DNA of 64,000 nt. Source: Pararhizobium mangrovi. Lineage in GTDB: Bacteria; Pseudomonadota; Alphaproteobacteria; Rhizobiales; Rhizobiaceae. The translations under genes and the position numbers were made by a program. The stretch spans positions 1-64,000 of the forward strand of contig NZ_VHLH01000016.1 of the NCBI RefSeq assembly GCF_006516965.1, written 5' to 3'. Below, in pieces: positions 47,810 through 64,000 of the stretch. The notes under the pieces were generated by a model, which was given only the letters and a program-made list of their open reading frames with translations, did no database searches and was not told the DNA's origin. Position 1 is the first letter of the stretch. Each line of letters opens with the position of its first letter.

Positions 47810-47960
47810 CCCGCCTTGTCCGGAAGAGGCGGGAGCTTCGAAAAGAGATACATCGGCTGCCGCCCGAAAAGACGATTTTTGTTGTCGGCTGAACCGAACG
47901 GGCGTGCCATCCGTTCCATCTCCAGCGCTTGGTCCCCTTCTCGCAAAGCGCATTCCCTTC

Positions 47961-49028: not shown

Positions 49029-50380
49029 CGACGATTTGGGGCCCATGGCGCGAACGCATGGCCGACGCGCCGGTCACGGAAGCGGGCCGCCTCGTCGGCG
49101 ACGGCGCGCTCGTGGTTCTTTCGCCGCATCCCGACGACGAGACGTTCGGGACGTCCGCGCTGATTTCGGGTTCCGCGCGTGCTGGAAGAACGATGGGCAT
49201 CGTCGCCGTGACCGATGGGGAAGCGTCGCACCGTTCACCTTCGATCCCACGGGAGCGCCTTGCCGAAATCCGCACGGCCGAGCAGCAGGCGGCCGTCGAA
49301 AGCCTCGGTGTTGCCGATGCGCGATGGCTCCGGCTGCATCTCGCCGACAGCGGCGCGGGCCGCGATCCGCGCATGGCCGAAGCGGCCGGCCGAGTCGCGA
49401 CCTTTCTCGACGAGATCGGGGCTACTGCGCTTTGCGCTCCGCATCCGGACGATCCGCACCCGGATCACCACGCGACGGCCGCACTTGCCGAGGCGGTTCG
49501 CGCCCTTCGCCCCCGTATCCGGCTCCTCCATTACTATGTCTGGTCGATGCGGCTAGGCGACGACGAGCCGTGCCGTACGGAAGGCCTGACGCCGTTCAGG
49601 CTGGCGACGGACATCGAAGCCAAGGGCCGCGCCATCGCCTGCCACCGTTCGCAGCTCGGCGCGCTCGTGACCGACGATCCGGAGGGTTTCGTGCTGCCGG
49701 AGTGGTTTCTCGAAGCGCAGCGCGCGCCGTTCGAGCGCTACGCCTGGGCGGCGATGCCGGGCGCACTGCCGGGTGCCGACCATTTCGCCGATCTCTACGC
49801 CAACGATGGCGACCCGTGGCACGTGCGGTCCTCGCGATACGAAGCGGACAAGCGCGCCGACAACATCGACCAGCTTTCCGGCACGCACCATACGCGCGGG
49901 CTCGACGTCGCCTGCGGGGAAGGTCATCTCGCTGCCGCCCTTGTCGAGGCCGGCGTCGTCCCGGCACTCACGGGTATCGACCGCGATCCCGGTATTGTAG
50001 CCCGTGCCCGCACGGTTCATGCCGGAATCTCCGGTCTCGATTTTGTCGAGGGCGCGCTGCCGGAAGGCCTGCCGGACGGGCCTTTCGATCTCGCGATCGT
50101 GTCGGAGATCCTCTATTTCCTCGACGAGGAAGGCTCGCGCATTCTTGCCGAAGGCCTGATCGAACGGCTCCAGCCGGGCGGCGACATTCTCGTGGTCGAC
50201 TATCTTGGCGATACCGGCACGCCGCTTTCCGGCCGCGACGCCCACGATTTCTTCCTCGCCGTGCTCGGCAATCGCTTCGTCACGGTCAGCGAGCGCGGGC
50301 GGGAGGCCTATCGCGCGACGCTTCTTCGATACGCCGGTGAAGGCGTTCCAGACCTGGCAGGTAGCGCTTCATCGCGCTGA
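49025..50380 (+). CDS. PIG-L deacetylase fused to a NodS-like methyltransferase
   Basis: A 451-residue two-domain protein. Residues about 25-240 are a PIG-L/LmbE de-N-acetylase: HPDDE at 35-39 is the zinc-binding catalytic motif, and HPDDPHPDHH at 140-149 is a second His-rich ligand segment. Residues about 250-440 are a SAM methyltransferase with LDVACGEGHL at 293-302, preceded by NDGDPWHVRSSRYEADKR, the NodS-type N-terminus. Together they could remove an N-acetyl group from a sugar and methylate the amine. It is coupled to the acyl-CoA dehydrogenase gene by an ATGA overlap and its last 95 bp overlap the convergent GT2 gene. Confidence 0.85.
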   Translation: MTTIWGPWRERMADAPVTEAGRLVGDGALVVLSPHPDDETFGTSALISGSARAGRTMGIVAVTDGEASHRSPSIPRERLAEIRTAEQQAAVESLGVADARWLRLHLADSGAGRDPRMAEAAGRVATFLDEIGATALCAPHPDDPHPDHHATAALAEAVRALRPRIRLLHYYVWSMRLGDDEPCRTEGLTPFRLATDIEAKGRAIACHRSQLGALVTDDPEGFVLPEWFLEAQRAPFERYAWAAMPGALPGADHFADLYANDGDPWHVRSSRYEADKRADNIDQLSGTHHTRGLDVACGEGHLAAALVEAGVVPALTGIDRDPGIVARARTVHAGISGLDFVEGALPEGLPDGPFDLAIVSEILYFLDEEGSRILAEGLIERLQPGGDILVVDYLGDTGTPLSGRDAHDFFLAVLGNRFVTVSERGREAYRATLLRYAGEGVPDLAGSASSR

Positions 50381-51425
50381 AGCGAAGCCGCTCGCGACGA
50401 AGGCAGGCAAGTTCGTTCTCGACGCGCAACCAGGCGAGCGTCCGCGGTTCGAGATCGGCGAGCCGGGCCGCGTGCTCGGGCGTCATGCCACGTGCGGCGA
50501 GGCACTTTGCGACCCGTTGCCGATCGTTCTCGTGTTCCATGAGATATCGCAGGCGCAGGCGTCGCAGCAGCTCCGAGGGCCGCTCCAGCATCTCGTCGAC
50601 TTCCGGGTCGGCCTCGTGGCGGTTGCGCGTCAGTTCCGCGGATAGGCCGCCTTGCGTGAAGCCGTCGAGCCGGCAGGAGGTCTCGACGCGAAGCGCGTTG
50701 CTGTAGGTGATGCGCATGCCGTGCGCCTCGCAATGGCGCCGCAATAGCCGATCCTCGCCGGAAGCGACGACGGGCAGCGGTGCGATGCGCCGATAGGCAT
50801 CTGCCGTAATAGCGAAGTTCGCCCCGCCGATATTGCCGTGATGCGGCCAGGGATTGTCCGGATCCGGAAAGAGAAGTGCTGCGATGTGGCGCGTGGTCTC
50901 GCGATAGGCGCGGATCGCCGCATCCCGCGCCGGATCGACGGCTTCGAGAAGGGCGGCCTCTTCGGCGATGAAGCCGATCCGGCCGCAGACGAGATCGAAG
51001 CCTTCGGCGAAATGCCCGTCGAGCACCGTCATCGTGTCCGGCGCGACCAGCGTGTCGGCATCCGTCGAATAGAGGATCGCGCCCGGCGCGAGGCGGTGCG
51101 CGATCGCCATCGCGAGAAGGCGTGCACGGCCCGCCGAACCGCAGCCGTTTCGCCACCCGACATCGACGACGGTGATCCCGCAGGCAAGCCTCGACGAAGC
51201 CGCTTCGATCGCCGCCTGCGTTCCGTCGTCGGTATCGTTGACGAGGAGAAGGACGTGCGCTTCGGCCCCGAAGGCTTCGCTAAGGCTTTTGAGGCATCGC
51301 CCGACCCGGTCCGCCTCGTTTCGAACCGGCACGCAGACGATGATGCGGGCGCTGCCGGGGCTTTTGCCAGGCGTCGGCGCCAGAAGGTGCCCGCCATACG
51401 CCGCCACGCATTCTCGTATCGACAC
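50286..51425 (-). CDS. Family 2 glycosyltransferase
   Basis: A 379-residue GT-A transferase. The opening is RIIVCVPVRNEADRVGRCLK, with STDADTLV as the DXD motif and GGANFAITADAYRRIAPLP as the acceptor helix. The C-terminal 130 residues are helical and Arg-rich, with many Leu-Arg repeats. The 3' end lies inside the convergent deacetylase-methyltransferase gene. Belongs to the same cluster; donor unknown. Confidence 0.82.
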   Translation of the reverse strand: MSIRECVAAYGGHLLAPTPGKSPGSARIIVCVPVRNEADRVGRCLKSLSEAFGAEAHVLLLVNDTDDGTQAAIEAASSRLACGITVVDVGWRNGCGSAGRARLLAMAIAHRLAPGAILYSTDADTLVAPDTMTVLDGHFAEGFDLVCGRIGFIAEEAALLEAVDPARDAAIRAYRETTRHIAALLFPDPDNPWPHHGNIGGANFAITADAYRRIAPLPVVASGEDRLLRRHCEAHGMRITYSNALRVETSCRLDGFTQGGLSAELTRNRHEADPEVDEMLERPSELLRRLRLRYLMEHENDRQRVAKCLAARGMTPEHAARLADLEPRTLAWLRVENELACLRRERLRFSAMKRYLPGLERLHRRIEEASRDRPPARAR

Positions 51426-51548
51426 CGTCTCTCGTCTCCTTCACCTGCGGAGGGCGAAAGATCGCGGCCGCGAGAGCGTTCCCCAAGCCGCACCGAAATT
51501 CGCTCGCCGTGCTCCGGCTGCCGCAGTCGATCGACGCGGCGAACGATT

Positions 51549-52322
51549 TCAGCGCGAACGGAAGCGGCGAACGAGCATTGGAATCAGAGCCACCACGGCG
51601 AGCGCGACGAAGGCAATGGTGATCTCGGGCGTGACGATGTCGGAAAGCGTCACGCTGCGCCCGGCCTTCGCGGCGGAAACGAGGACGCTGTCCAGACCTT
51701 CGCCGAGATAGGCGTAGGCGAAGGTTCCGGGCAGGATGCCGAGATAGGTCGCCACGACGTAGTCGAAAAGACTGACGCGAAAGAATGCCGGGGCGACATT
51801 GATGACGAAGAAGGGGAAGATCGGCGCCAGCCGCAGAGCCAGCAGATAGGAAAACGCATCGCGCTCGAAGCCGCCGGCAAGGCGATGGATGGCGCCGCCG
51901 GCGCGCCGGCGCAGTACGCTCGAAAATGCGGTTCGGGCGGCGAGGAAGATGATCGTCGCTCCGATCGTCGCCGAAACGCTGGTGACCAGCCCACCGCCGA
52001 GCCAGCCGAAGAGGAAGCCGCCGGTGATCGTGAACAGCGAAGCGGCCGGAAACGACGCCGCGACGGCCAGAACGTAGATTCCGGCGAAGATCGCCCCGGA
52101 AAGCAGCGTATGCGCCGCGACATAGGCCTGAAGGCCGGCACGGCGATCGGCGAGCGCATCGAGCGAGACATAGCGTTGCAGACCGGCCGCATAGCCCGCG
52201 GCAAGCAGCGCCAGCAGGACGGCGAGCGGTAGGAAGCGCGTCCATCGGTTCCGGCTCCCGGCGGAGGGTCCGGTCGTCTCTTCGCCCGGCGCGGTGTCGG
52301 TCCGTCCCTCGCCTTCCCGCAT
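51549..52322 (-). CDS. TVP38/TMEM64 (VTT-domain) membrane protein
   Basis: A 257-residue membrane protein of the DedA-like VTT family. The core has FPAASLFTITGGFLFGWLGG and LLALRLAPIFPFFVINVAPA, with about six membrane spans. Relatives act in lipid movement across membranes. Start ATG 52322 begins after a ~29-codon upstream extension without hydrophobic features. It ends the glycoconjugate cluster and lies opposite the rpmH promoter region. Confidence 0.82.
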   Translation of the reverse strand: MREGEGRTDTAPGEETTGPSAGSRNRWTRFLPLAVLLALLAAGYAAGLQRYVSLDALADRRAGLQAYVAAHTLLSGAIFAGIYVLAVAASFPAASLFTITGGFLFGWLGGGLVTSVSATIGATIIFLAARTAFSSVLRRRAGGAIHRLAGGFERDAFSYLLALRLAPIFPFFVINVAPAFFRVSLFDYVVATYLGILPGTFAYAYLGEGLDSVLVSAAKAGRSVTLSDIVTPEITIAFVALAVVALIPMLVRRFRSR

Positions 52323-52648
52323 TCTCGCCCGCCCCTGTCGCGATAGTTCGGAAGAGCGCCCTTCGCCCGTCCCGTCGAACGCTCTAAGCCATCGCCGCCG
52401 AGGCCTCAACTAACGCCTGTTCGCATTCGTTGAAGCCTTCGTGAAGGCGGGGCCGGCCCGAACGGCCATCGTGCGACGACCTCGAAGCGGCACGCGACGG
52501 CCGCGCGCGGATTGACTTTTCGTCACTTGCGTGCCTATACGTCGCCCGTTCGTCTTTGCGCCTGCCCTGCGGGCGCGTCTGTGCGAGCGCAATCCACGCA
52601 TCGAAACACGCCATTCCAAGAAGGGCCGCACACCGCGGTATTCAAATA
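52323..52648. other. Intergenic region before rpmH
   Basis: A 326-bp gap that carries the rpmH promoter (52512-52541) and, near 52376, a fragment GAACGCTCTAA that matches the right end of the palindromic repeat family. An identical CGAACGCTCTAA occurs near 10699. No gene is supported. Confidence 0.6.
52512..52541 (+). promoter_or_regulatory. Strong sigma-70-type promoter of rpmH-rnpA-yidC
   Basis: TTGACT at 52512-52517 and TATACG at 52536-52541 are separated by 18 bp and sit about 107 bp before rpmH. Both hexamers are near the consensus, as expected for a ribosomal protein operon. Confidence 0.8.
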
Positions 52649-52786
52649 ATGTCGAAGCGTACCTTTCAGCCTTCCAAGCTCGTGCGCAAGCGCCGCCACG
52701 GCTTCCGCGCACGCCTTGCGACCAAGGGCGGACGCAAGGTTCTTTCCGCCCGCCGCGCCCGCGGGCGCAAGCGTCTGTCGGCGTAA
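52649..52786 (+). CDS. rpmH: 50S ribosomal protein L34
   Basis: A 45-residue, strongly basic protein with the L34 signature [19 protein letters not shown] and [20 protein letters not shown]. One residue longer than the usual 44 because of an extra Ser after the initiator Met. It starts the rpmH-rnpA-yidC run. Confidence 0.98.
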
Positions 52787-52813
52787 AGCCGGCTCACGCG
52801 GCGCGTTCGCGCC

Positions 52814-53218
52814 ATGGACGCGGCTCTTCCCGTCGGCGATGCCGCGCGGCATCCCGGCCGGCTCAAGAAGCGCTCGTCGTTCCTTGCGGTCCGCGAGGGC
52901 GAACGCCGTCGCGGACCGTTCTTCGTGCTCGAGGTGCGCGATCGCGGCGATGGCGAAGCCCCACGCATCGGCTTCACCGTCACCAAGCGCCAGGGCAATG
53001 CCTGCGAGCGCAATCGCATCCGTCGCCGGCTCAAGGAAGCGGTGCGTCTGGAAGGCCGGTTCGCCATGGCCGAAGGGCACGATTACGTGCTCGTCGGGCG
53101 GCGCGAGGTGCTTCATGCGTCGTTTTCACGCTTGACCTCGGCGCTCAAAGACCGCATCGAGGGCCGGCGCGAGCGGGCCGCCCGGCGTGGCGATGGCGCT
53201 CGCACCGTGAAACGCTAG
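52814..53218 (+). CDS. rnpA: Ribonuclease P protein component
   Basis: A 134-residue basic protein with [13 protein letters not shown] near residues 17-29 and the RNR motif [16 protein letters not shown] near 63-78, which contacts the RNase P RNA and pre-tRNA leader. It lies 27 bp after rpmH. It supports 5' processing of tRNAs by the catalytic RNA, whose gene is not in this window. Confidence 0.95.
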
Positions 53219-53330
53219 AGATTTCAGGCGCCGCGCCCCGCCGTGGCGGACATGCCGGAAATCAGGTCCGCAATGCGGACGTCGTCGAGCACCTTCGACC
53301 AGCAGAAACTGGGGCCATCAAGGATCTGGG

Positions 53331-55190
53331 ATGGACAACAACCGCAATTACATCGTCGCGATTGCGCTTTCGGTGCTCGTACTCATCGGCTGGCAATATT
53401 TCTACGTGAGCCCGCGCATGGACAGCCAGCGCACCGCTCAAAACACGGCCGGCGAAGGAAAGCAGGCCGCGACGACGCAGGCGCCCGCATCGCAGCCATC
53501 CGGCTCGAACGCCGGCACGGCACCGGCGAACGGAAGCACCGACGACGGGGCGCCTCCGCCGAACGAGGCCAGCGGCACCCTTCCCGCCGGCAACGGCGAT
53601 ACCGGCAAGCAGACCACGACCGCCCGCAGCGTGCTCATCGGCGAGACGCCGCGCATCGCGATCGAGACGCCCGCCGTCATCGGCTCGCTCAACCTCAAGG
53701 GCGCGCGCCTCGACGACCTGAAGCTCAAGAACTACCATGAGACCGTCGACGAGAGCAGCCCGCTCATCACGCTCCTGAGCCCGGCCCAGTCGCAGAACGG
53801 CTATTTCGCCGAGCTCGGCTATATCGGCAACGACGCGGTCGGCAAGGTGCCCGGCCCCGACACGGTCTGGAAGGAGAGCGAGGGCGGCAAGCTGACGCCT
53901 TCGAACCCCGTTACGCTGACCTGGACGAACGACAAGGGCGTCACCTTCAACCGGCACATCGCCGTCGACGACCAGTACATGTTCACGATCAAGGACACGA
54001 TCGCCAACAAAACCGGCGCGGCGATCTCGCTGACGCCCTACGGTCGCGTCACGCGCTTCAACCGTCCGCACGACCGCTCCTCCTACGTGCTTCAGGAAGG
54101 TCCGATCGGCGTCTTCGGCAATGCCGGCCTCGAAGAGACGAGCTATTCCTCGATCAAGGACGACGGCATCGTCGACCAGCCGAGCGCCAAGAACGGCTGG
54201 CTCGGCCTGACCGACAAGTACTGGGCGACGACGCTCATTCCGCGCAGCGGCTCCTTCGACGGGCGGTACGCCTATTTCAAGGACGGAAGGCCGCACTGGC
54301 AGACGGACTTCAAGTCGACCCCGGTGCGCGTCGCTGCGGGTCAATCCGCCTCAATCGAGAACCTCGTCTTCGCCGGCGCCAAGCGCGTGCCCCTCGTCAA
54401 CGCCTATCGCGACAACCTGAACATCAAGCAGTTCGACCTGCTCATCGACTGGGGATGGTTCTACTTCATCACCAAGCCGATGTTCCACCTGATGGACTTC
54501 TTCTACAACCTCGTCGGCAATTTCGGCGTAGCGATCATCCTGACGGTGATCATCATCAAGCTCATCTTCTTCCCGCTTGCCAACAAGTCCTACTCCTCCA
54601 TGGCCAAGATGAAGGCCATTCAGCCCAAGATGCAGGAGCTGAAGGAGAAATACGGCGACGACCGTATGGGCATGCAGCAGGAAATGATGAAGATGTACAA
54701 GGAGGAGAAGATCAACCCGATCGCGGGTTGCTGGCCGATGCTCCTCCAGATTCCCGTCTTCTTCGCGCTCTACAAGGTGCTCTACACGACGATCGAGATG
54801 CGGCATGCGCCGTTCTTCGGCTGGATCCAGGACCTTTCGGCACCCGATCCGACCTCGATCTTCAACCTGTTCGGCCTGTTGCCTTTCACGCCGCCGGACG
54901 CCTTCATGATCGGCATCTGGCCGCTGATCATGGGCTTCACGATGTTCATGCAGATGCGCATGAACCCGACGCCGCCCGACAAGACCCAGGCGATGGTCTT
55001 CACCTGGATGCCGGTGGTGTTCACCTTCATGCTGGCGCACTTCCCGGCCGGTCTCGTGATCTACTACTCGGTCAACAACTCGCTCTCGGTGCTTCAGCAG
55101 AGCATCATCATGAAGCGCCAGGGCGTGAAGAACGAGCTGTGGAACAACCTCTCCGGCCTGTTCCGACGCAAGCCGAAACCGGCGGAATGA
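53331..55190 (+). CDS. yidC: Membrane protein insertase YidC
   Basis: A 619-residue insertase with an N-terminal membrane span (about 6-22), a large periplasmic domain (about 60-370; the low-complexity Ala/Gly/Thr linker lies at 38-90) and the conserved C-terminal five-span core. FYNLVGNFGVAIILTVIIIK, the cytoplasmic coiled loop MAKMKAIQPKMQELKEKYGD, and CWPMLLQIPVFFALYKVLYT are all hallmark segments. Typical length for alphaproteobacteria is 590-620. The gene commonly found next, engB, is absent here; a GN-repeat gene lies downstream on the opposite strand. Confidence 0.97.
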   Translation: MDNNRNYIVAIALSVLVLIGWQYFYVSPRMDSQRTAQNTAGEGKQAATTQAPASQPSGSNAGTAPANGSTDDGAPPPNEASGTLPAGNGDTGKQTTTARSVLIGETPRIAIETPAVIGSLNLKGARLDDLKLKNYHETVDESSPLITLLSPAQSQNGYFAELGYIGNDAVGKVPGPDTVWKESEGGKLTPSNPVTLTWTNDKGVTFNRHIAVDDQYMFTIKDTIANKTGAAISLTPYGRVTRFNRPHDRSSYVLQEGPIGVFGNAGLEETSYSSIKDDGIVDQPSAKNGWLGLTDKYWATTLIPRSGSFDGRYAYFKDGRPHWQTDFKSTPVRVAAGQSASIENLVFAGAKRVPLVNAYRDNLNIKQFDLLIDWGWFYFITKPMFHLMDFFYNLVGNFGVAIILTVIIIKLIFFPLANKSYSSMAKMKAIQPKMQELKEKYGDDRMGMQQEMMKMYKEEKINPIAGCWPMLLQIPVFFALYKVLYTTIEMRHAPFFGWIQDLSAPDPTSIFNLFGLLPFTPPDAFMIGIWPLIMGFTMFMQMRMNPTPPDKTQAMVFTWMPVVFTFMLAHFPAGLVIYYSVNNSLSVLQQSIIMKRQGVKNELWNNLSGLFRRKPKPAE

Positions 55191-55250
55191 CGGCGTTCGG
55201 CAAACTGGTTCCGGTTAATGCCACAATACGTCATCTCGGTACGGGAACGA

Positions 55251-55273
55251 CCCGCCGACGGGTGATCGGCGGG
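55251..55273. terminator. Hairpin between convergent yidC and GN-repeat genes
   Basis: A perfect 8-bp stem CCCGCCGA / TCGGCGGG with a 7-base loop lies between the two convergent stops. No T tract is visible, so factor-independent termination is uncertain; position favours a 3'-end role. Confidence 0.5.
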
Positions 55274-55284
55274 CCGTGACAAGG

Positions 55285-55791
55285 TCAGCGGGAGTGGTTG
55301 CCGTTCATGTTGCCGTTGCCGAAGCCCGAGTTGTGGTTGCCGTTCATGTTGCCGTTGTAGCTGCCGTAGTTGCCGTTGCCGTTCTGGTTGCCGTTGGCAC
55401 GGCCGCCGTTGTAATTGCCGTTGTAGTTGCCGTTCTGCAAACCTGAGTTGTGATTGCCGTTCATGTTGCCGTTGCTGCGGCCGGAGTTTCCGTTGCCGTT
55501 GTAGTTGCCGCTGCTGAAGCCCCAGTTGCCGTTGCCGTTCACGCTGCCGTTTCCGGTACCGTAGTTTCCGTTACCGTTGTAGTTGCCGTTGTTGATGCCG
55601 TTGTTATGGTTGCCGTTGTCGTTGCCGTTGAAATCGCCCGTATTGTGATTGCCGTTATTGTTGCCGTTGAGGGCACCGGTGTTGCCATTGCCGTTACCGT
55701 TGCCGCTTCCATAAGAGAACGCCTGAGCACCGGCAATCATCGAGATCGAGAACAGGGCTGCGCCAGCCGCCAGAAGAATCCGCGATTTCAT
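55285..55791 (-). CDS. Secreted asparagine/glycine-repeat protein (GN-repeat)
   Basis: A 168-residue protein with a signal peptide (MKSRILLAAGAALFSISMIA, cleavage after AGAQA near residue 25) and a mature part almost wholly of NGN repeats, for example NGNYNGNYNGGRANGNQNGN. Aromatic residues (mostly Tyr, a few Phe, one Trp) recur at intervals. The start ATG 55791 has GGGAG eight bases upstream. No domain outside the repeats. It is the only member of its locus on this strand and shares repeat units with the proteins at 57411, 59692 and 60436. Confidence 0.88.
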   Translation of the reverse strand: MKSRILLAAGAALFSISMIAGAQAFSYGSGNGNGNGNTGALNGNNNGNHNTGDFNGNDNGNHNNGINNGNYNGNGNYGTGNGSVNGNGNWGFSSGNYNGNGNSGRSNGNMNGNHNSGLQNGNYNGNYNGGRANGNQNGNGNYGSYNGNMNGNHNSGFGNGNMNGNHSR

Positions 55792-56271
55792 GCTATCCAC
55801 TCCCTAGTGAGGGGCGCCTCGATAACGGGGAGGGCCTCGCGTCCCTGCCCTTGGTGATCCCGGCTTGCTGCTGCCCGTTCCGACACGATACCGGGACGTT
55901 GCCCTTACCGTTTCGCCTTTCACAGTCGGCTTTGAGGATTACCCCCGCAGAGCCGTATCGGTCTTTGGAGGTACGCCGTGCGGAGCCGGAGGATGGCGCC
56001 GCGACGTCGAACCGTCCCACGGCGGGGCGGGATCAAGGAAAGGCGAGGATCGGTTGAAGGCTTCGTGCGGCGCATCGGCCCCCGGGGCCGGCGGTCCGGC
56101 ACCGAACCCGACCGGTGCCTGTTGACATCGCTCCTGCCGGCTGGCCGTCCGAACGAGAGTTGCGGGAACGCACATTCGCGGCATTCGGCCATGAGATCGC
56201 AGCCGGTTTGCGACGCTGCGGCGAAGATCCAGCCGATTGCGTGCGGAAGACGGCGCGACCGAGCGGAGATC
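55792..56271. other. Intergenic region between the GN-repeat gene and the LuxR regulator
   Basis: A 480-bp gap. It must contain the promoter of the GN-repeat gene (minus strand). A frame starting near 56115 gives MPVDIAPAGWPSERELRERT but overlaps the regulator's 3' end and lacks a ribosome site, so it is not called. No other structure was recognised. Confidence 0.5.
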
Positions 56272-57063
56272 CTATCGCAATGCGAACGAGCCGAAATTCT
56301 GCCGATCGACGGGGCCGAATGTGGCCGGGACCTGCAGTGCGACCTGCATGCGGTTGGTGACCTTCATCTTGCGCATGACGTTGCGCAGGTGAACCTTGAC
56401 GGTCGAAAGCGACATGCCGAGTTCGTAGGCGATGATCTTGTTCGACTTTCCCTGGCAGACGCACTCGACGACGTCGCGCTCCCGTCGTGTCAGAAAGACG
56501 TCGGTTCCGCTACGCGACGAAGTGTTCGGCGTTTGGCGCATCCCGCCGGACGCACCGGAACGGCTCATGAGCCTTTCGAGCGAGTGCGGCGGTGTCGGGC
56601 ACGCATGCGCAAGATCGAACGCTACGGCCCGTGGCCTTTCCGTCACGAAGATCGGGCGTTCCGGACGCGTGTGTTGTGCAGTTTCGCACGGGTAGTACGA
56701 TACATGGCAAAGGACGAGGCGCAAGACCGCGATCGCCGCTTCGATGCTGAGGGTTTCCGGCAGGCACCCGGCGATCCCGAGACTGCCGCATTCGCTCGCG
56801 AGCCCCGGACGCGCCGCCCTGCATTTGAGGATGATGTCGCTTTCGGGATGGACGAAGCGAACGCGCGAAAGCCTCTCCGTCACCCGCGTATCCGATGGCG
56901 CCATCGTCCTGATATCCATGACCACGATATCGGGTGAAAATCCCGGCTCTCTCTCGATGTCCGCTCTGCAGCGAACTTCGAAGTCACGACAGTGCGCATG
57001 GAGGATCTGGGCGAACGCCTGAAGGGAAAGCGCATCCGTCCCTACCAGCAAAATCCTGAACAT
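56272..57063 (-). CDS. LuxR/NarL-type response regulator
   Basis: A 263-residue regulator with an N-terminal receiver-like domain (1-120) and a C-terminal LuxR HTH. The phospho-acceptor candidate is Asp50 (DIVVMDIRTM), while the acidic pocket has Asp10 only (LVGTDA) and the usual Lys is not obvious (DIILKCRAA), so phosphorylation may be lost. The HTH reads LTRRERDVVECVCQGKSNKI then VHLRNVMRKMKVTNRMQVAL. ATG 57063 starts the family homology. It is divergent from the autotransporter gene and probably controls the locus. Partner kinase is not present. Confidence 0.88.
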   Translation of the reverse strand: MFRILLVGTDALSLQAFAQILHAHCRDFEVRCRADIEREPGFSPDIVVMDIRTMAPSDTRVTERLSRVRFVHPESDIILKCRAARPGLASECGSLGIAGCLPETLSIEAAIAVLRLVLCHVSYYPCETAQHTRPERPIFVTERPRAVAFDLAHACPTPPHSLERLMSRSGASGGMRQTPNTSSRSGTDVFLTRRERDVVECVCQGKSNKIIAYELGMSLSTVKVHLRNVMRKMKVTNRMQVALQVPATFGPVDRQNFGSFALR

Positions 57064-57410
57064 GCGAAGATCTTCTCGATCGTCCGCATGTCTATCCGTA
57101 TCGGAATCACCCTTCGTTTCGCACGAAAACGCATCGTAGTCTGGAACGATAGATACGCGCATGTGCCCTAACCCTCGCGCTGGAGCATCCGGGATTTCAT
57201 CTGTACGCTCTGTCGGTGATTTGCGAGCTATTATTCTACGGAAATTCGACGTTTCTTCCCTGGAATTTTGCGAAACAAAATAGTAAATAATTTTTTAAAT
57301 GACAAGTTGATTGAATGCGCATCCGTCGCGGAATTTATGCGATTGAGGTAGAAATGCATCGGCTCTTCCGACAGCCAATAGGGGATTGCGGGATGCAAGG
57401 GGGCACTTTC
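57064..57410. promoter_or_regulatory. AT-rich divergent control region of the GN-repeat locus
   Basis: A 347-bp region between the regulator and the autotransporter-like gene. Bases 57221-57316 are strongly AT-rich (for example TAGTAAATAATTTTTTAAAT at 57281-57300), against a GC-rich neighbourhood. This is a typical target for MucR-like or H-NS-like silencing and should hold promoters for both genes. Exact hexamers were not assigned. Confidence 0.6.
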
Positions 57411-58931
57411 ATGCGGGTCGTTCGAAAGCTGTCGTATCTGGTATCGGGCGTTAGTTGCGTAACTTTTCTCTCATCGTTCGTCCCGGCGCACGGGGCGAGC
57501 ATCGTCGACGACATCCCGGTTCCCGATCTTGCGGCTCTCGATCCGGCGTTGGCGGACAGCGGCTTCAATTCCGGCAGTGGCAATACCGGCCTCTTCAATG
57601 GCGGCAGCGACAATACGGGCTACTTCAATGCCGGCTCGGGCAATACGGGCGCCTTCAACGGCCTTGAGAACACGGGCGCCGACGACGGCAACGACAATAC
57701 CGGCGTCTTCAACGGCAATCGCAACGCCGGCGACGCCAACGGTTCGCGAAACGTCGGCGCGTTCAACGGCAATCTGAACGCCGGCAGCGGCAACGGCTCG
57801 GGCAATAATGGCGACCTGAACGGGAACCAGAACGATTTTGCCAGCGCCGGGGCGAACAACGGGAACGCCAACGGCAACGCCAATGACGGCGCGCTGAACG
57901 GCAATGCGAACGGCGCGTTCGTCACCGGTTCGGACAATGGTAACGGTAACGGCAACGCCAACGCCGGAGCGCTCAACGGAAACCGCAACGGCAGCGGCGT
58001 CGCGTCGCCCGCCTCGACGTCCGGTCCGGTTACCGTCGAAGGCACGGCAACGTCCGTCGGCGAAGACGCATCGGCGTCCGGCTTCGCCGCGACGGCAGTC
58101 GGCCAGTTTTCCGCGAGCTCCGGCTTTGCGGCGACCGCGATCGGCCAGTTCGGTTCGGCCACCGGTTTCGCATCGACCAGTGTCGGTCAGTTCGCCGTCG
58201 CCTCCGGCTTCGCGTCGACGAGCGTCGGCCAGTTTTCCACCTCGTCCGATTTCGCTTCGACCGCGACGGGACAGTTTTCGAGCGCTTCGGGCTTCGCTTC
58301 GACGGCCAACGGCCAGTTCTCGAGCGCGTCCGGCGCGCTCAGCACGAGCGTCGGCCAGTTCTCGCAGGCATCGGCGACGGGCGCCACCGCGGTCGGTCAG
58401 AACGCCCGGGCGAACGCGCGGGCGAGCACCGCCATCGGGCAAGGCGCGACCGCCCGCAACGCCAATTCCGTCGCGATCGGGGCCGGGGTGGCGACGACGC
58501 GGGAAAACCAGGTCGTGCTCGGCACCGCCTCGCAGAGCGTCGCCATTCCGGGCGTGCGCTCTTCGCTGGCAAGGCGCCGCCAGTCCGGCGACACCTATTT
58601 CGTCACGTCCGACGACGGCGGCAACCTCGCGACTTCGACTTTCAGTCTCGATGATCTCGACCATCGCCTTTCGGATATCCGCCGCGATGCACGCGAGGGT
58701 TCGGCGGTGGCGATCGCGATCGGAGACGTGAGCTTTCTGCCCGAGGGGCGCAATTTCGGGCTCAAGGGCAATGTCGCCGTTTTCGGTGGCGAGGGGGCGG
58801 CCGGCGTCTCCTTCGCCGGTCGCCTGCCCGAAGCGCCGCACGGGACCGACATGTTTCTGACCGGCGGCCTCGGCGTCGGTATGGGGAGCGGGCTCGTCGG
58901 CGGGCGCGCCGGGCTTTCCATTGCCTGGTAG
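57411..58931 (+). CDS. Trimeric-autotransporter-like adhesin with GN-repeat N-terminus
   Basis: A 506-residue secreted protein. Signal peptide 1-28 (ends FVPAHGA). Residues 51-195 are N/G repeats such as NTGAFNG and NVGAFNGN. Residues 213-360 are nine 14-residue YadA head repeats (GFAATAVGQFSASS type), ending NANSVAIGAGVATTRENQVV, the usual head terminus. Residues 416-506 look like a beta-strand anchor with aromatic C-terminus (GLSIAW). A coiled-coil stalk is nearly absent. The ATG 57411 has AAGGGGG seven bases upstream; an in-frame ATG at 57315 gives a non-homologous extension. It likely sits in the outer membrane as a trimer. Confidence 0.82.
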   Translation: MRVVRKLSYLVSGVSCVTFLSSFVPAHGASIVDDIPVPDLAALDPALADSGFNSGSGNTGLFNGGSDNTGYFNAGSGNTGAFNGLENTGADDGNDNTGVFNGNRNAGDANGSRNVGAFNGNLNAGSGNGSGNNGDLNGNQNDFASAGANNGNANGNANDGALNGNANGAFVTGSDNGNGNGNANAGALNGNRNGSGVASPASTSGPVTVEGTATSVGEDASASGFAATAVGQFSASSGFAATAIGQFGSATGFASTSVGQFAVASGFASTSVGQFSTSSDFASTATGQFSSASGFASTANGQFSSASGALSTSVGQFSQASATGATAVGQNARANARASTAIGQGATARNANSVAIGAGVATTRENQVVLGTASQSVAIPGVRSSLARRRQSGDTYFVTSDDGGNLATSTFSLDDLDHRLSDIRRDAREGSAVAIAIGDVSFLPEGRNFGLKGNVAVFGGEGAAGVSFAGRLPEAPHGTDMFLTGGLGVGMGSGLVGGRAGLSIAW

Positions 58932-59496
58932 TCCGTCCGTTTTCGCGATCCTGCAGGTCTGCGTGCTCGCCCTGTCTTCCCTCGCATGCTGCTTCGAGGC
59001 GGCGACCGCACGGGACGAGAAGCCGCCGAGAACGCCGACGCCGAGCGCCCGTCCGCAAGCCGATGCGTCCGATGCGAGGCTCGTGCTCGTCCTCGTGCGC
59101 AACGTGTTCGTCGCGGTCGGGCAGGCGATCGCGGCCGGCAACTATTCCGTGCTTCGCGATCTCGCAGCGCCCGGCTTCCGGCGATCCTTTCCCGAAAGCC
59201 GGCTTGCCACCGTGTTCGAGCCGCTTGCCGAGGCGCGCATCGATTTTTCGACAAGCGTTCTGCTCGTTCCGAAGATCGCCCGCGCCGGCTTTCGCGACGA
59301 CGGAACCCTCATCGTCGAAGGCGTCATGCCGACGAGCCCGGACGGCGTGCGGTTTCGCCTCCTGTTCCAACGGATCGATGGTGGCTGGCAGTTGCTCGGC
59401 ATCTCGATGGACGCCGTCGCCGATCGTCAGGCGCCCGCATCCACCGGTGGGGCGGAAAGTGCGAAGCCCTCGCGATCGCCTTCTCCCCATCCGTGA
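58921..59496 (+). CDS. Secreted NTF2-like protein of unknown function
   Basis: A 191-residue protein whose start overlaps the autotransporter gene by 11 bp with a TTG. A hydrophobic N-terminus (VFAILQVCVLALSSLACC) is a likely signal peptide. The rest contains AIAAGNYSVLRDLAAPGFRR, LLVPKIARAGFRDDGTLIVE and LFQRIDGGWQLLGISMDAVA, which is the helix-plus-curved-sheet pattern of NTF2/SnoaL folds. No active-site residues are evident. It belongs to the adhesin operon and may bind or process a small molecule or the adhesin itself. Confidence 0.65.
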   Translation: MPGSPSVFAILQVCVLALSSLACCFEAATARDEKPPRTPTPSARPQADASDARLVLVLVRNVFVAVGQAIAAGNYSVLRDLAAPGFRRSFPESRLATVFEPLAEARIDFSTSVLLVPKIARAGFRDDGTLIVEGVMPTSPDGVRFRLLFQRIDGGWQLLGISMDAVADRQAPASTGGAESAKPSRSPSPHP

Positions 59497-59691
59497 AGCG
59501 GTTGCCAAGGCTCCATCGGCGAGCGGACGGGCACGGATCGGCTGCCGCGAGCATGGGCCGAAAGGGGTACGCCTGTTGGTCGAATGGATCGAATGCCGCG
59601 GACAACCCAGAATGGGCTCGTCTTTACATTGCCTTACCGGGCTTTACCGGGCGGCGGTTCAGCGAAACCGGCCGCGGAGGAGGAAACCTTG

Positions 59692-60327
59692 ATGCATCGT
59701 ACCACTCTGGCCGGGATGGCCATTGCCGTCATCGTCTTCACCGGTGTTCACGGGAACCGAATCACGGCCCCGCAGTCGGCCCATATCCTGAAGGCCGGCT
59801 GGTCCATCGGCAATGGCAACGGAAACGGAAACGGCAATTCCGGCTTCGGTAACGGAAATTACAACGGCAACGGCAATGCCGGCTACGGCAACGGGAATGG
59901 CAACGGAAACGGGAACTCCGGCAAAGGCAACGGCAATGCCAATGGCGGCCACAATACCGGGATCGCCAACGGTAACGGGAACGGAAACGGCAATGTCGGC
60001 TTCGGCAACGGAAACCGGAACGGCGGCTACAACGCCGGCACCATGAACGGCAACGCAAACGGCAATGGCGCGCCGGACTCCCATGGCAATATCGGCTTCA
60101 GTAATGGCGGCAGCGGCAACATCGGTGCCTTCAACGGGCGCGGCAACGCGTCTTCCTCCTCCGGCAACGGCAATATCGGCGCGTATAACGGCAATGCGAA
60201 CATGGGGCGGAACGACGGAAACGGCAATGTCGGCGCGTTCAACGGAAACTTCAACGGCGGCTCGCGCAACGGCAACGGCAATGTCGGGGCGTTCAACGGA
60301 AACCACAACGGGAACGGCAACCGCTGA
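59692..60327 (+). CDS. Secreted GN-repeat protein
   Basis: A 211-residue protein with a signal-like N-terminus (LAGMAIAVIVFTGVHGNR) and a long repeat region (35-211): NGNGNGNGNSGFGNGN at the start and NIGAFNGR and NVGAFNGN toward the end. The latter units match those in the adhesin at 57411. GGAGGAGG sits eight bases before the ATG, a very strong ribosome site. No other domain. It follows the NTF2-like gene by 195 bp. Confidence 0.85.
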   Translation: MHRTTLAGMAIAVIVFTGVHGNRITAPQSAHILKAGWSIGNGNGNGNGNSGFGNGNYNGNGNAGYGNGNGNGNGNSGKGNGNANGGHNTGIANGNGNGNGNVGFGNGNRNGGYNAGTMNGNANGNGAPDSHGNIGFSNGGSGNIGAFNGRGNASSSSGNGNIGAYNGNANMGRNDGNGNVGAFNGNFNGGSRNGNGNVGAFNGNHNGNGNR

Positions 60328-60435
60328 TGCAGGGTCGTACACCGTTCGATACGACCTGCTCTTAAACTCCGCCGACACGACCCGGCAGATGGCGTCCGCG
60401 TGCTGAAGCGGCGAACCCGCGAGCGGGAGGAAACG

Positions 60436-60957
60436 ATGAAGAGATCAGTCGTCCTGTCCATACTTCTTTGCGCGACCTTCGTGCCCTTCGCCACCCGCAT
60501 CGCGGCGGGCATGGCTGCGGATCGGCATTTCGCCCAGAGCTTCGGCACCGGGAACGGAAATGGCAACGGCAACGTCGGCAACGGCAATGGGAACGGCAAT
60601 GCCGGAAATGGCAACGGCAACGGCAACACCGGCGACGACAACGGCAACGGCAACGCCGGGAGCGACAACGGCAACGACGATACCGGAAGCGGTTTCGGAA
60701 ACGGGTTTTCGACCGACGGCAACGAGAACGGCCTCCCTTTCCGCAAGGATCGCCTCGGCGCTCCCCTGAAGGATCCGCTCCGGGCAACGGACGACGATCG
60801 CCTCCCGCGCATGCAGGCGGGCACGGACCGCAGTACCGAATCCACGGCCGATGCCTTCGCCATGAGCGCTCGGACGGGGAAGATACGCGTGCATGAACGC
60901 GTCGCGATGTCCGGGGCCTTTCAGGGTCGTACGGAAGGACCCTGTTCGCTCGTCTGA
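60436..60957 (+). CDS. GN-repeat protein with charged C-terminus
   Basis: A 173-residue protein with a signal-like start (MKRSVVLSILLCATFVPFAT) and repeats from about residue 36 to 90 (NGNGNAGNGNGNGNTGDDNG). The last 80 residues are charged and unlike the repeats. The terminal ~15 residues (GAFQGRTEGPCSLV) are encoded by a copy of the palindromic repeat and adjoining DNA, so the original stop may have been lost. GGGAGG is a good ribosome site before the ATG. Confidence 0.75.
   Translation: MKRSVVLSILLCATFVPFATRIAAGMAADRHFAQSFGTGNGNGNGNVGNGNGNGNAGNGNGNGNTGDDNGNGNAGSDNGNDDTGSGFGNGFSTDGNENGLPFRKDRLGAPLKDPLRATDDDRLPRMQAGTDRSTESTADAFAMSARTGKIRVHERVAMSGAFQGRTEGPCSLV
60914..60937 (+). repeat. Palindromic dispersed repeat, copy 6 (partial, inside a coding end)
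   Basis: The core GGGCCTTTCAGG then GTCGTACGGAAG matches the family, and the DNA after it (GACCCTGTTCGC) resembles the sequence after copy 3 (GACCCTGTTTGC). The right arm is not conserved. It is read through as the C-terminus of the GN-repeat protein. Confidence 0.65.
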
Positions 60958-60965
60958 GGCGATGA

Positions 60966-61004
60966 CGGTCGGTCCTTGCGCGCTGAAAGCGCATGGGCCG
61001 ACCG
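60966..61004 (+). promoter_or_regulatory. Hairpin in the leader of the receiver-only gene
   Basis: A 10-bp outer stem (CGGTCGGTCC with GGGCCGACCG, one G-U pair) and a 5-bp inner stem (TGCGC with GCGCA) form one extended hairpin. It lies 29 bases before the next start codon and nine bases after the GN-repeat stop. It could act as a 3' end stabiliser, terminator or leader control. Confidence 0.55.
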
Positions 61005-61009
61005 ATCTC

Positions 61010-61027
61010 GGCGAAGGAGGTTTCGCC
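61010..61027 (+). promoter_or_regulatory. Ribosome site displayed in a hairpin loop
   Basis: The stem GGCGAA / TTCGCC encloses GGAGGT, the ribosome site of the receiver-only gene starting at 61033. The site is in the loop rather than the stem, so initiation is probably not blocked but could be modulated. Confidence 0.5.
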
Positions 61028-61032
61028 TTTCC

Positions 61033-61536
61033 ATGCGCACGGTCCGGACTGAACGGCTTTCCACGCCCGCCCGGGCGACGCCCGGGGCAGCAGGGCCGCC
61101 GAACGCAAAGGGCGAGCCGAAAGGACGCGTGCTCATCGCCATGGACCGGCGCCTCATCCGCGAGGCGCTGGCATACGAGTTGCGCAAACGCTTCGGCGAA
61201 AGCTGCGTTCTCGCCGTGCAGGACGATCAGGCGCGCGAGCCGACCGGAGGCGACGAGCCCTCCGTCATCATTCTCGACTGCTGCGACGGCGATGGCGATG
61301 CCGATGCACAGGCCACCATCCAGCGCACCGCCCACGACTTTCCGACGGCTCGCATCCTCGTCCTGTGCGAACCCGAAACCCTGGCCTCCCTTCCCGTCTG
61401 GTTGAGCGGAGAGATCGGCGGCTGCTTCACGAGCAACGATCCGCTCGAACTGCTGATGGCCGCCGTCGGCGTGCTGATGGCCGGCGGCGTCTTCTTCCCG
61501 GCCCCGCTCGTGCGGCGTCTGCTCACGCCGCGTTGA
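61033..61536 (+). CDS. Receiver-like protein without output domain
   Basis: A 167-residue protein with a ~30-residue basic N-terminus and a receiver-like fold: RVLIAMDRRLIREALAYEL, VIILDCCDGDGDA (Asp acceptor region) and ARILVLCEPETLASLPVWLS. It ends soon after GGVFFPAPLVRRLLTPR, where the paralogue at 56272 continues into its LuxR HTH. The shared pattern G-C/G-hydrophobic, then EL/EA-AAV, then FFP/YYP suggests both come from one ancestor. It may act as a phosphate sink, a dimer partner or an inhibitor of the full regulator. Confidence 0.75.
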   Translation: MRTVRTERLSTPARATPGAAGPPNAKGEPKGRVLIAMDRRLIREALAYELRKRFGESCVLAVQDDQAREPTGGDEPSVIILDCCDGDGDADAQATIQRTAHDFPTARILVLCEPETLASLPVWLSGEIGGCFTSNDPLELLMAAVGVLMAGGVFFPAPLVRRLLTPR

Positions 61537-61587
61537 ACCGGCGCGCTGGTTCGAGACGGCAAAAGCGACGCGGATTGCGCCCGTCTT

Positions 61588-61641
61588 CGGCCTATGGGGC
61601 TCGATCCGGTACCGCGGCCTATGGGGCTTGATCCGGTACCG
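61588..61641 (+). repeat. 27-bp tandem duplication
   Basis: Two adjacent units beginning CGGCCTATGGGGCT and ending GATCCGGTACCG are identical but for one base. They lie between the receiver gene and the DMT transporter. Could be a recent slippage product or paired protein sites. Confidence 0.8.
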
Positions 61642-61668
61642 CCATCTCGTGATCTCGAAACCGCGACG

Positions 61669-62577
61669 TCAGCCGCGCTCGCGCTTCGATGGCCAGACCT
61701 CCAGCACACCGGCGAGGAGGACCAGCGCGCCGCCCGCGAGTTCCAGCGGCGAGAGCAGCTCGCCGGCGAGGAGAGCCGCGGAAAGCGCGCCGACGATCAC
61801 TTCCGTCATCAGGAGAATGCCGACGCGCACCGGTTCCAGTCGCACGGTCGCCCACATCAGGCTGGCAATCGACAGGCCCCACCATACCCCGCCGGCGACG
61901 AAGGCGAGCCCGACGGGTTCGATCAGGCGGCTCGAACCGAGTCCGACCGGCAGCGGTTCGAAGAACGGCGCCAGCACCAGCGACGTGATCGCCGCCCCCA
62001 TGGAGAAGACGAAGGTGGCCGGAGCGGGCGCAAGCGGCGAACGGCTCCGCATTCCCGTCGTGGCGACGGACCAGCACAGGCCCGCGGCGAGCGCCATCCA
62101 TTCGCCCGCGCCGCGCGGCAGAGGCATTTCACCGCCGGCGCCGAGCATAACGACGAGGCCGGCAAGGCCGACGAGGATCGCGAGCAATCGAAGGCGCCGC
62201 ACCGGCCAGCCCATGACGAAGCGCCCGATCAACGTGCTCCAGACGGGCGTCAGGAAATAAAGCAGGATGACGATCGCTACCCGCCCGTAGACGAAGCCGA
62301 CGGAGTAAAGCGCGAAGGCCGCGCCGCCGACGGCGATCGACACGAGGGCAAGACGATCGGCCCGGACGAGCCGATCGCGTTGGCCGATTGCCACCGGAAG
62401 GACGAGCAGCGAAGCGGCAAGCGTGATCGCGACCGTTCCCCAGGCGCCCGGCAACCCGGCATCGGCGATCGAGCGCACGGGCAGCCAGTAGAACCCCCAG
62501 AGAACGCCCGTGAAAACGACGATCGCCGTCGCCAACGACGTTGTCCCCATCGCCGGCGCGCTGCGTTCCTGCGTCAT
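61669..62577 (-). CDS. DMT-superfamily (EamA) transporter
   Basis: A 302-residue protein with ten predicted membrane spans in two EamA halves (about 12-140 and 155-295). Each half has the typical pattern of five spans; LLYFLTPVWSTLIGRFVMGW lies in the first half and LMTEVIVGALSAALLAGELL in the second. Substrate is unknown; relatives export amino acids, purines or metabolites. An in-frame ATG nine codons later (MGTTSLATAI) is an alternative start. Confidence 0.85.
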   Translation of the reverse strand: MTQERSAPAMGTTSLATAIVVFTGVLWGFYWLPVRSIADAGLPGAWGTVAITLAASLLVLPVAIGQRDRLVRADRLALVSIAVGGAAFALYSVGFVYGRVAIVILLYFLTPVWSTLIGRFVMGWPVRRLRLLAILVGLAGLVVMLGAGGEMPLPRGAGEWMALAAGLCWSVATTGMRSRSPLAPAPATFVFSMGAAITSLVLAPFFEPLPVGLGSSRLIEPVGLAFVAGGVWWGLSIASLMWATVRLEPVRVGILLMTEVIVGALSAALLAGELLSPLELAGGALVLLAGVLEVWPSKRERG

Positions 62578-62832
62578 GCATATCCTTCAAATGATCGCCG
62601 GCGGATCGGCCCGAAGCCGGCATTCGACATGTTCGATCGGCGCCGAGGACCATTTCGACGCGGGCGTCGCATATGGCGATACGCGAGCCGCACGGGATTT
62701 GCTACCGGCCGCTTTTGCGTTCTTTCAACCCCGTTCGGAAGGCTAAACGTCAATGCTCCAGAAAGATGACGCCGTTAGCGGGCCATCCATCTTCGGCAAG
62801 ACGATGGATGTCGGCGCGACCTCTCCATCCGA
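62578..62832. other. Divergent intergenic region before the M24-like gene
   Basis: The gap between the DMT gene and the next supported frames. No clear promoter hexamers were assigned and no coding frame with a ribosome site was found. Confidence 0.45.
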
Positions 62833-62973
62833 ATGGCAACCCGCCTTTCGCAGCTTGACGCCGAGCACCGGCACGACGAAAAGCTCGCCATGCCGTCCTA
62901 CCCCAACGACCCTGAAGCGACGTGGGACGCGTCCGAACGGTTTCTCGCAACCTCGCAAAGGAGCGCCCGCTGA
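62833..62973 (+). CDS. Possible small upstream ORF coupled to the M24-like gene
   Basis: A 46-residue frame: MATRLSQLDAEHRHDEKLAM followed by PSYPNDPEATWDASERFLAT. Codon use is GC-biased at the third position and its TGA stop overlaps the next ATG by one base (TGATG), which suggests coupling. A ribosome site is not clear and no family is recognised. It could be a small protein or the 3' remnant of a longer one. Confidence 0.35.
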   Translation: MATRLSQLDAEHRHDEKLAMPSYPNDPEATWDASERFLATSQRSAR

Positions 62974-64000
62974 TGGCCATCGTTCTCAAACCCGTCGCCC
63001 TGCCCCATTTCGGTGTGCCGATCCGGGCGCCCGAAATCCCGCAGGAAATCTACGCCGAGCGTTGCGACACGCTCTATGCGCGGTCCGGTGCGGACTGGGT
63101 CGTTGTCTATGCCGACCGCGAGCATCTTGCGAACATCGCCTTCCTGAGCGCCTTCGAGCCGCGCTTCGAGGAGGCGCTGCTTCTTCTCGGGCCGGACGGA
63201 AGGCGCATCCTCGTATGCGGCAACGAAAGCAGCAGCTACGCGCCGCTCGCGCGTCTTCCGGAGACGGAGATCGTGCTTTGCCAGTCCCTGAGCCTGATGG
63301 GGCAGACGCGCGAGAGCGCCCCGGCGCTCGAAATCGTCCTCGAGGAGGTCGGTCTGAAGGCCGGCGATACGTTCGGCGTGGTCGGCTGGAAGTATCTCGG
63401 CCGGACGGAATGGAGTGGTGAAGCGCCGAGCTTCCAGGTTTCGGCCCATCTGATCGACGTCCTGCGCAAGATCGCCGGCAAGGACGGCTCGCTTGTCGAA
63501 GCGACGCCGATCCTCATGGATCCGGAAAAGGGCCTGCGCGCCGTCGTCGACGTCCATCAGATCGCCGCCGGCGAATGGGGAGCCGCCCGTGCGTCCGAGG
63601 CCGTCTGGCGGATCGTCACCGGCATTTCGCCCGGCGAGGACGAGTTCACTGCTGCCGCGCGCATGGGCTACGCCGGCGAGGAACTTTCGGCGCACGTCAT
63701 GTTCGCGACGGCGGCGAAGGGCGAGCCGGTCGTCGGCCTTCGCAGTCCGCGCGGACGGATCCTTTCGGAAGGCGAAGGGGTTTCGACCGCCGTCAGCTAC
63801 TGGGGCGGGCTTTCCTCGCGCGCCGGCATGATCGCGCGCGAGGACGATGATTTCGTCGAGATCGCCAAGTCCTATTTTGGGGCTTTGCTCACCTGGTACG
63901 AAACCGTCGACCTCGGCTGCGAGGGCGGCGAAGTCGATGCCGCGGTGCGCGCGAAGCTCGCCGAGGCGAAGCTGGAGCCGGCCCTCAATCCGGGCCATCT
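62973..64000 (+). CDS. M24-family (Xaa-Pro peptidase-like) protein, cut by window end
   Basis: At least 342 residues, open at the right edge. The N-terminal domain (1-160) resembles creatinase/prolidase N-domains (LYARSGADWVVVYADREHLA, LVCGNESSSYAPLARLPETE). The start of the pita-bread domain is visible near residue 200 (WRIVTGISPGEDEF). Where M24 enzymes have their first two metal-binding Asp residues, this protein reads GVSTAVSYWGGLSSRAGM with none, so it may lack the metal centre. AAGGAG stands nine bases before the ATG. The final His/Glu ligands would lie beyond the window. Confidence 0.75.
   Translation, partial: MAIVLKPVALPHFGVPIRAPEIPQEIYAERCDTLYARSGADWVVVYADREHLANIAFLSAFEPRFEEALLLLGPDGRRILVCGNESSSYAPLARLPETEIVLCQSLSLMGQTRESAPALEIVLEEVGLKAGDTFGVVGWKYLGRTEWSGEAPSFQVSAHLIDVLRKIAGKDGSLVEATPILMDPEKGLRAVVDVHQIAAGEWGAARASEAVWRIVTGISPGEDEFTAAARMGYAGEELSAHVMFATAAKGEPVVGLRSPRGRILSEGEGVSTAVSYWGGLSSRAGMIAREDDDFVEIAKSYFGALLTWYETVDLGCEGGEVDAAVRAKLAEAKLEPALNPGH

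Follow-up and report, generated by a model that had tools for sequence, protein, structure and literature searches.

Asn/Gly-repeat proteins, a YadA-type autotransporter and paired atypical receivers in a putative cell-surface or matrix locus of Pararhizobium mangrovi

Several described systems invite comparison with the locus presented here. In enterobacteria, curli are controlled by CsgD, a LuxR-type regulator with an atypical receiver. Trimeric autotransporters have known helpers, SadB and TpgA, and the mycobacterial PPE proteins use type VII secretion. Outside the enterobacteria, many alphaproteobacteria are described as having curlin subunits only, with no csgC or csgD (PMC3521004). The orphan atypical response regulators BldM and WhiI form a heterodimer in which the WhiI pocket is degenerate (PMC4125116). 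For export, MacB takes proteins such as the enterotoxin STII from the periplasm (PMC5985334), and a MacB-like Aat system secretes Aap/CexE (PMC7943197).

The locus, whose Asn/Gly repeats we call NGN repeats, resembles each of these systems in part. With curli it shares secreted repeat subunits, a variable repeat number and, as regards curli of enterobacteria, a LuxR-type regulator, together with a matrix role that is proposed here; it differs in its repeat, in having no curlin or CsgG in the locus, in its proposed trimeric-autotransporter anchor and, in some relatives, in a MacAB-type exporter. Protein C has the head repeats and anchor of YadA-type adhesins (AtaA, BpaC, YadA), but it also bears an N-terminal NGN repeat domain and is accompanied by a D-type partner instead of SadB or TpgA. 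Regulators B and G are a recurring gene pair of atypical receivers that may work like BldM and WhiI, except that G lacks a DNA-binding domain. A route through Sec to the periplasm and then outward by an ABC pump would follow MacAB-TolC and Aat, for which STII and Aap/CexE are precedents (PMC5985334, PMC7943197); in contrast to these, the NGN substrates would be repeat proteins, and the link is one of gene neighbourhood in relatives only. Mycobacterial PPE-MPTR (Pentapeptide_2) proteins have NxGxx-like repeats, and three Mycobacterium loci stand among the matches listed; A differs in its 13-residue unit and in a signal-peptide-like start (by eye). None of the seven locus proteins matched Pentapeptide_2 in Pfam at an E limit of 1, although few matches weaker than about 0.1 pass the HMMER filters, and we ruled out membership of that family on this absence. 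A literature search found no paper describing an NGN locus, in agreement with the first-pass annotation, which knew of no described system with such content.

The window is a 64,000-nt stretch of Pararhizobium mangrovi contig NZ_VHLH01000016.1 (GCF_006516965.1), and all coordinates are positions in it. All seven genes, A to G, were found at roughly the coordinates first given (Table 1).

Table 1. Genes and intergenic region of the NGN locus.
Feature	Positions	Strand	Description
A (NGN1)	55285..55791	-	Signal-peptide-like start, then tandem 13-residue GxxNGNxNGNxNx units; 168 aa
B	56272..57162	-	LuxR-type regulator: degenerate receiver and GerE HTH
B/C divergent intergenic region	57163..57410		AT-rich
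C	57411..58931	+	Trimeric autotransporter (trimer putative), 506 aa: NGN/NxGxx repeats at the N terminus, YadA head repeats and, at the C terminus, a YadA-type anchor
D	58921..59496	+	Secreted (by eye), possibly NTF2-like; putative partner of YadA-type autotransporters
E (NGN2)	59692..60327	+	Secreted (by eye), 211 aa; NVGAFNG/NIGAFNG units mixed with 13-residue NGN units
F (NGN3)	60436..60957	+	Secreted (by eye), 173 aa; short NGN stretch of period 9 and a C-terminal part without repeats
G	60976..61536	+	Receiver-only, without DNA-binding domain

Better starts were assigned to A (an ATG at 55791), C (57411), E (59692) and F (60436), and AG-rich sites precede those of E and F. If D is taken to begin at its TTG, it shares 11 bases with the end of C. 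A start for G at 61033 or 61129 seems likelier than the one tabulated. Third codon positions at the locus are GC-rich, as in genes. The locus is flanked upstream by rnpA and yidC and downstream by an EamA-type transporter. The B/C intergenic region has a GC content of 0.46, against 0.64-0.71 in the four other upstream stretches measured, and is likely regulatory. The best 14-base motif common to the sequences upstream of A, B/C and E had 7 mismatches in total, where 25 shuffled sets gave 6-8, and Rfam returned no match on 52000-64000.

Repeats in A, E and C far exceed what chance would give. A consists almost entirely of its 13-residue unit after the signal-peptide-like start, with nine matches to the pattern (mean 0.02 and maximum 1 in 1000 shuffles); E has six (maximum 1 in 1000 shuffles), and C has 14 NxGxxN matches (maximum 4 in 1000 shuffles). 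For these three, the shuffle tests and gene-model checks ruled out chance repeats or spurious ORFs. F has four NxGxxN matches, equal to its maximum in 1000 shuffles, and no 13-mer; its Asn pattern has a period of 9 and, judged by eye, is confined to one part of the sequence. The initial description of four signal-peptide proteins with NGN-type repeats thus stands for A, C, E and F, all of which carry Asn/Gly repeats behind signal-peptide-like starts (by eye), with F the weaker case. Units had also been described as common to several of these proteins, and the NVGAFNGN pattern, searched at the DNA level, does match in both C (once) and E (twice), these being its only three matches in the genome. 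By homology search, NGN proteins in this genome are confined to this locus, and a search of the plasmid collection with E gave zero matches.

The 13-residue repeats are kept across 25 aligned NGN1 proteins, namely A of the window and 24 of 43 candidates. A structural model built from these 25 sequences is a solenoid with one coil per 13 residues and two short strands in each, at a middling pLDDT of 66.7. Foldseek with this model gave a best E of 1.3, polysaccharide lyases and an ice-binding protein being among its weak structural neighbours, and a search of solved structures for NGN1 gave one chance-like match. In a second structural comparison, against 38 chains, beta-helices were ranked (TibA at Z 8.8, rmsd 3.9 over 152 residues; Ag43 among others), polysaccharide lyases again appeared and pentapeptide proteins came only low; at Z 8.8, this ranking of the predicted model may reflect a common arrangement only.

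By its sequence, C is a YadA-type trimeric autotransporter carrying NGN repeats, its trimeric state being putative. The NxGxx/NGN repeats come first and are followed by YadA head repeats (Pfam PF05658, E 2.1e-6, 28.4 bits against a cut-off of 25), and the head is confidently modelled over residues of about 212-340. Among solved structures, a profile of C and two homologues matches BpaC at 9.5e-36. A direct Pfam scan of C found no anchor match; a profile of the C-termini of five relatives, four of which pass the PF03895 cut-off with the fifth (L206) 0.1 bit under it, matches C at 8.9e-9, and the profile reported no match when the last 100 residues of C were shuffled 2000 times. The best solved match of the anchor is that of AtaA (E 0.0081 and 0.02), and the anchor part of the model, a monomer prediction, is of low confidence. 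The trimeric-autotransporter-like module noticed at first is therefore a real one, with both head repeats and anchor. The same plan of NGN repeats, head and anchor is found in Aureimonas (L122, L128) and in L071 (G405). C-like proteins are rare, with five among 61 relatives, including its own, at E <=0.001, and foreign matches to C span mostly the YadA part. In the plasmid collection, C matched 43 records, none covering 80% of it, and the best 20 of the 43 were annotated as YadA-like family or hypothetical protein.

Homologues of D are present in 10 of 394 family genomes, its own included. Outside its own genome, a D-type gene lies beside a YadA-type gene in eight of ten loci, and D thus looks like a partner of autotransporters and not of the NGN proteins. 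The exceptions, with no adjoining YadA-type gene, are L203/G158 and L209/G131, only 2,234 bases being read for the latter. D-type genes also adjoin ordinary YadA-type genes without NGN repeats, and they occur in just three of 48 NGN loci among the matches listed. The initial reading of D as an NTF2-like secreted protein fared unevenly: D does appear secreted by eye, but its NTF2-like nature is a weak lead that comes from a DUF4440 match at E 0.089 (Pfam), and Pfam gave no match for three D homologues from autotransporter loci or for the L071 homologue.

The two regulators are both atypical. B has a GerE/LuxR HTH (Pfam, 4.2e-20), which bears out its first description as a LuxR regulator, and its receiver, read by eye from the alignment, keeps an Asp and lacks the conserved Lys; most B-type relatives are without the receiver Asp (also from the alignment, by eye). 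G had been called receiver-only and had no match in Pfam; its family aligns to canonical receivers with 96.9% probability, in keeping with that description, and the conserved Lys is absent (by eye). G-type and B-type genes occur together in five other loci (L095, L117, L130, L197 and L198, the last two lying outside the set of 48), and B-type genes were found in eight and G-type receivers in three of the 48 NGN loci among the matches listed. B-type genes also occur in stretches with no NGN genes nearby (L063-L070), which rules out B as an NGN-only regulator. In six of seven such loci (L063-L069, two of them from one genome), polysaccharide genes lie near the B-type gene, read by eye from translations as sugar transferases, glycosyltransferases, and sugar-nucleotide or chain-length genes. 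This neighbourhood hints that B-type regulators may control the matrix.

NGN1 homologues are sparsely distributed. At E 1e-6 they were found in eight of 394 family genomes, its own included (seven of 393 others); a profile search of the order found them in eight of 397 genomes and a phylum scan in five of 398, the latter including one weak match, in G803, which has four stops inside and is the sole match outside the order. Across a collection of 84,980 species genomes, there are at least 51 loci, of which 48 remain after the Mycobacterium loci L129, L135 and L138 were left out before counting. The loci listed fall in Mesorhizobium, Methylobacterium, Kaistia, Aureimonas, Roseiarcus, Aestuariivirga, Afipia, Bradyrhizobium, Amaricoccus, Pseudaminobacter and a Paracoccaceae MAG; because 23 of the 48 among the matches listed are from Mesorhizobium, they are not independent. 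Duplicate stretches were counted once (L090/L073, L109/L075, L113/L076, L123/L080, L137/L072, L100/L196), and gene calls in relatives are simple in-house calls. NGN ORFs were taken from stop to stop and identified by a density rule, which finds none in L092, L122 or L134.

Groups of NGN genes accompanied by regulators are seen repeatedly in these loci. Two or more NGN ORFs were counted in 43, and three or more in 38, of the 48 loci among the matches listed, and a B-type gene or a response regulator is present in 40 of them. In the same 48 listed loci, a histidine kinase like that of L071 was found in 30 and a response regulator scoring >150 bits with the L071 profile in 32; 28 of these regulators score 229-315 bits, and four from Methylobacterium, at 178-184 bits, were read as FixJ-like. 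In Mesorhizobium-type loci, a kinase and a LuxR-type response regulator stand in place of B and G of the window (by Pfam for L071). By the thresholds used, eight of the 48 listed loci have neither a response regulator nor a B-type gene; two of the eight, L108 and L122, are on short contigs and do have the kinase. Repeat genes scattered without regulators would speak against a regulated system, and they do occur: a lone NGN gene with no searched regulator nearby was found in nine stretches from three genomes (L077, L079, L081-L087), as against the 40 listed loci that have a regulator, and a tenth such stretch (L074) has only a response regulator read as OmpR-like. The full order A-B/C-D-E-F-G was found in no other locus examined. 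The closest in content is L071, where the autotransporter and NGN modules lie together with regulators between them.

In some relatives, the NGN genes are accompanied by an exporter. MacA and MacB genes lie no more than about 2.5 kb from NGN genes in seven of the 48 loci among the matches listed, the other 41 having none in the stretch examined. In three of the seven (L120, L126, L133), co-oriented genes for an HlyD-type adaptor, an ABC ATPase and a MacB permease come after the NGN genes (by Pfam for L120). In four from Methylobacterium (L093, L097, L124, L131), the exporter genes are divergent, again at most about 2.5 kb away; a response regulator lies between in three of these, and L124 also has a PAS-like gene. 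In other genomes, 44 MacB_PCD matches in 14 genomes of about 77 Mb (hand-summed) give a background of about 1% per 20 kb, and the seven of 25 non-Mesorhizobium loci are far above this rate, four of the seven being of one genus. The L120 MacB shares 54-62% identity with the six other NGN-linked MacBs and about 37-42% with MacBs not beside NGN genes, bar a 64-residue fragment at 44%. All seven fall on one side of a branch with support 89/91, found in 90% of bootstrap trees, which is under the tool's 95/80 mark and came with a warning of long branches. A different, more distant MacB lies upstream of the C homologue in L071; a search of that genome with the L120 MacB was negative at E 1e-10. No MacAB genes were found in the window at 45001-64000, and the P. 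mangrovi genome has MacB-type genes outside the NGN locus; the missing exporter of the locus may be a MacAB-type pump, as in relatives.

Searches for known curli parts separate the locus from curli proper. None of the seven proteins matched the curlin repeat (PF07012), which had zero matches in the whole genome, and none matched CsgG. B scored 41.9 bits against the NCBIfam CsgD model, whose cut-off is 250, and is therefore ruled out as CsgD; with no curlin, CsgG or CsgD match among its proteins, the locus was ruled out as a member of the curli family. The earlier statement that curlin secretion genes are absent holds for the seven locus proteins but not for the genome, which has a CsgG-family gene on contig C27 in a locus read as holdfast-type. 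Likewise, the likeness to a matrix or functional-amyloid locus is supported in part, by the recurring NGN groups with regulators and by a real autotransporter, but not by a CsgD or a curlin.

Taken as a whole, the locus is probably a cell-surface or matrix protein system, one that likely works like curli without the curli parts tested. The curlin-type ORFs of two other NGN loci (L117 and L198, with the limits given below) and the polysaccharide genes near B-type regulators, read by eye, also speak for this. A, E and F would pass into the periplasm and from there out of the cell. Their Asn-Gly repeats would then make rigid beta-solenoid rods, which would assemble or bind to matrix. C, in the outer membrane, would display a repeat of the NGN kind and anchor or seed the free subunits, with D helping to fold or export it. 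B would switch the locus on, with G as a receiver-only partner, and in some relatives a dedicated ABC pump of the MacAB type probably carries out the last export step. Rather more speculatively, the NGN proteins could make up a new Hyphomicrobiales class of extracellular fibre or matrix, in which beta-solenoids, exported by MacAB where it is present, polymerise from C as nucleator under paired atypical receivers.

Other readings must be weighed against this surface or matrix system. In one less likely reading, the NGN proteins would be genuine functional amyloids: the NGN domain of C would nucleate Asn/Gly-rich cross-beta subunits, much as CsgB does for CsgA. Repeats rich in Asn and Gly, with a copy number that varies among NGN proteins, are what such subunits would have, and curlin-type ORFs lie beside NGN genes in two loci. 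That of L117 is above the curlin cut-off (22.4 bits against 20.7), with no curlin match reported at E 0.001 in its whole-genome search; L198/G536 has one match above the cut-off at 7.4e-4, its annotated ORF alone scoring below it at 18.3 bits. The second ORFs of the two pairs are linked to each other by in-house profiles. FapD is the peptidase counterpart in Fap systems, and in L095 a C39 peptidase adjoins the receiver-only gene. Against cross-beta subunits, Gln is scarce in NGN proteins (0-3%), the NGN1 model is a solenoid that may be a stable monomer, and the seven locus proteins have no curlin or Csg match.

It is unlikely that the NGN proteins are instead monomeric solenoids that bind exopolysaccharide, water or ice, or metal at the surface without self-assembly. 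The polysaccharide genes seen by eye beside B-type regulators where NGN genes are lacking, the lyases and ice-binding protein among the weak neighbours of the NGN1 model, and the His-rich stretches of some NGN paralogues would fit such binding; those structural neighbours, however, have at most a beta-helix fold in common with it, and a unit of the NGN kind is also displayed on autotransporter C. Less likely still, the autotransporter pair of C and D would be a module unrelated to the neighbouring NGN operon of A, E and F. The rarity of D-type genes in listed NGN loci, and their place beside ordinary YadA-type genes, are in line with such a juxtaposition, but C has NGN repeats of its own that resemble those of E, and in L071 both modules lie in one locus.

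If the surface or matrix reading is true, the locus would be a matrix-building system without curli parts, with an autotransporter as its surface anchor and D as a new autotransporter partner family, and it would point to a MacAB-type pump that may be devoted to structural proteins. Many NGN members are from Mesorhizobium and Methylobacterium, genera with cultured strains, and the system would have a bearing on how rhizobia and leaf bacteria coat their surfaces.

At two loci of other genomes (L117 and L198), the open reading frames adjoining the genes for putatively exported proteins with Asn/Gly (NGN) repeats read, marginally, as curlin-type, one CsgA-like and one CsgB-like, and a C39 peptidase directly follows the receiver-only gene at a third. 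NGN genes also neighbour an additional secreted family of about 200 aa, which combines a short NGN stretch with a conserved RRQAP...APGLAAAGIEaCLGS part; among the four members scanned, no Pfam family reached the cut-off. Elsewhere in the genome of P. mangrovi, three consecutive genes on contig C27 form what we take to be a set resembling the HfaA-HfaB-HfaD holdfast anchor.

Features at and beyond the NGN loci
Feature	Coordinates
CsgA-like and CsgB-like ORFs (marginal)	L117:11279-12540
CsgA-like and CsgB-like ORFs (marginal)	L198:6054-7343
C39 peptidase	L095:12989-13510
~200-aa secreted family	L097:15909-16502
~200-aa secreted family	L093:10322-10957
~200-aa secreted family (L131, L126, L130, L133, L193-L195)	
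Secreted 170-aa protein, CsgG-family lipoprotein, secreted 367-aa protein	C27:13369-16015 (L240:5370-8016)
NDNST/TDNSTT-repeat protein	L070:3243-4457
rnpA-yidC	window 52814-55190

Lone NGN genes in two relatives (L077, L081, L085 and L087; genomes G313 and G131) end in His-rich tails that are perhaps metal-binding. Another Asn-rich repeat type, in L070, adjoins a LuxR-type regulator with a degenerate receiver. In the window, rnpA-yidC precede the NGN locus, and the Mesorhizobium NGN loci (L089/L101) lie close to genes reading as argB, dapD and dapE; these two sides may perhaps derive from a single old neighbourhood.
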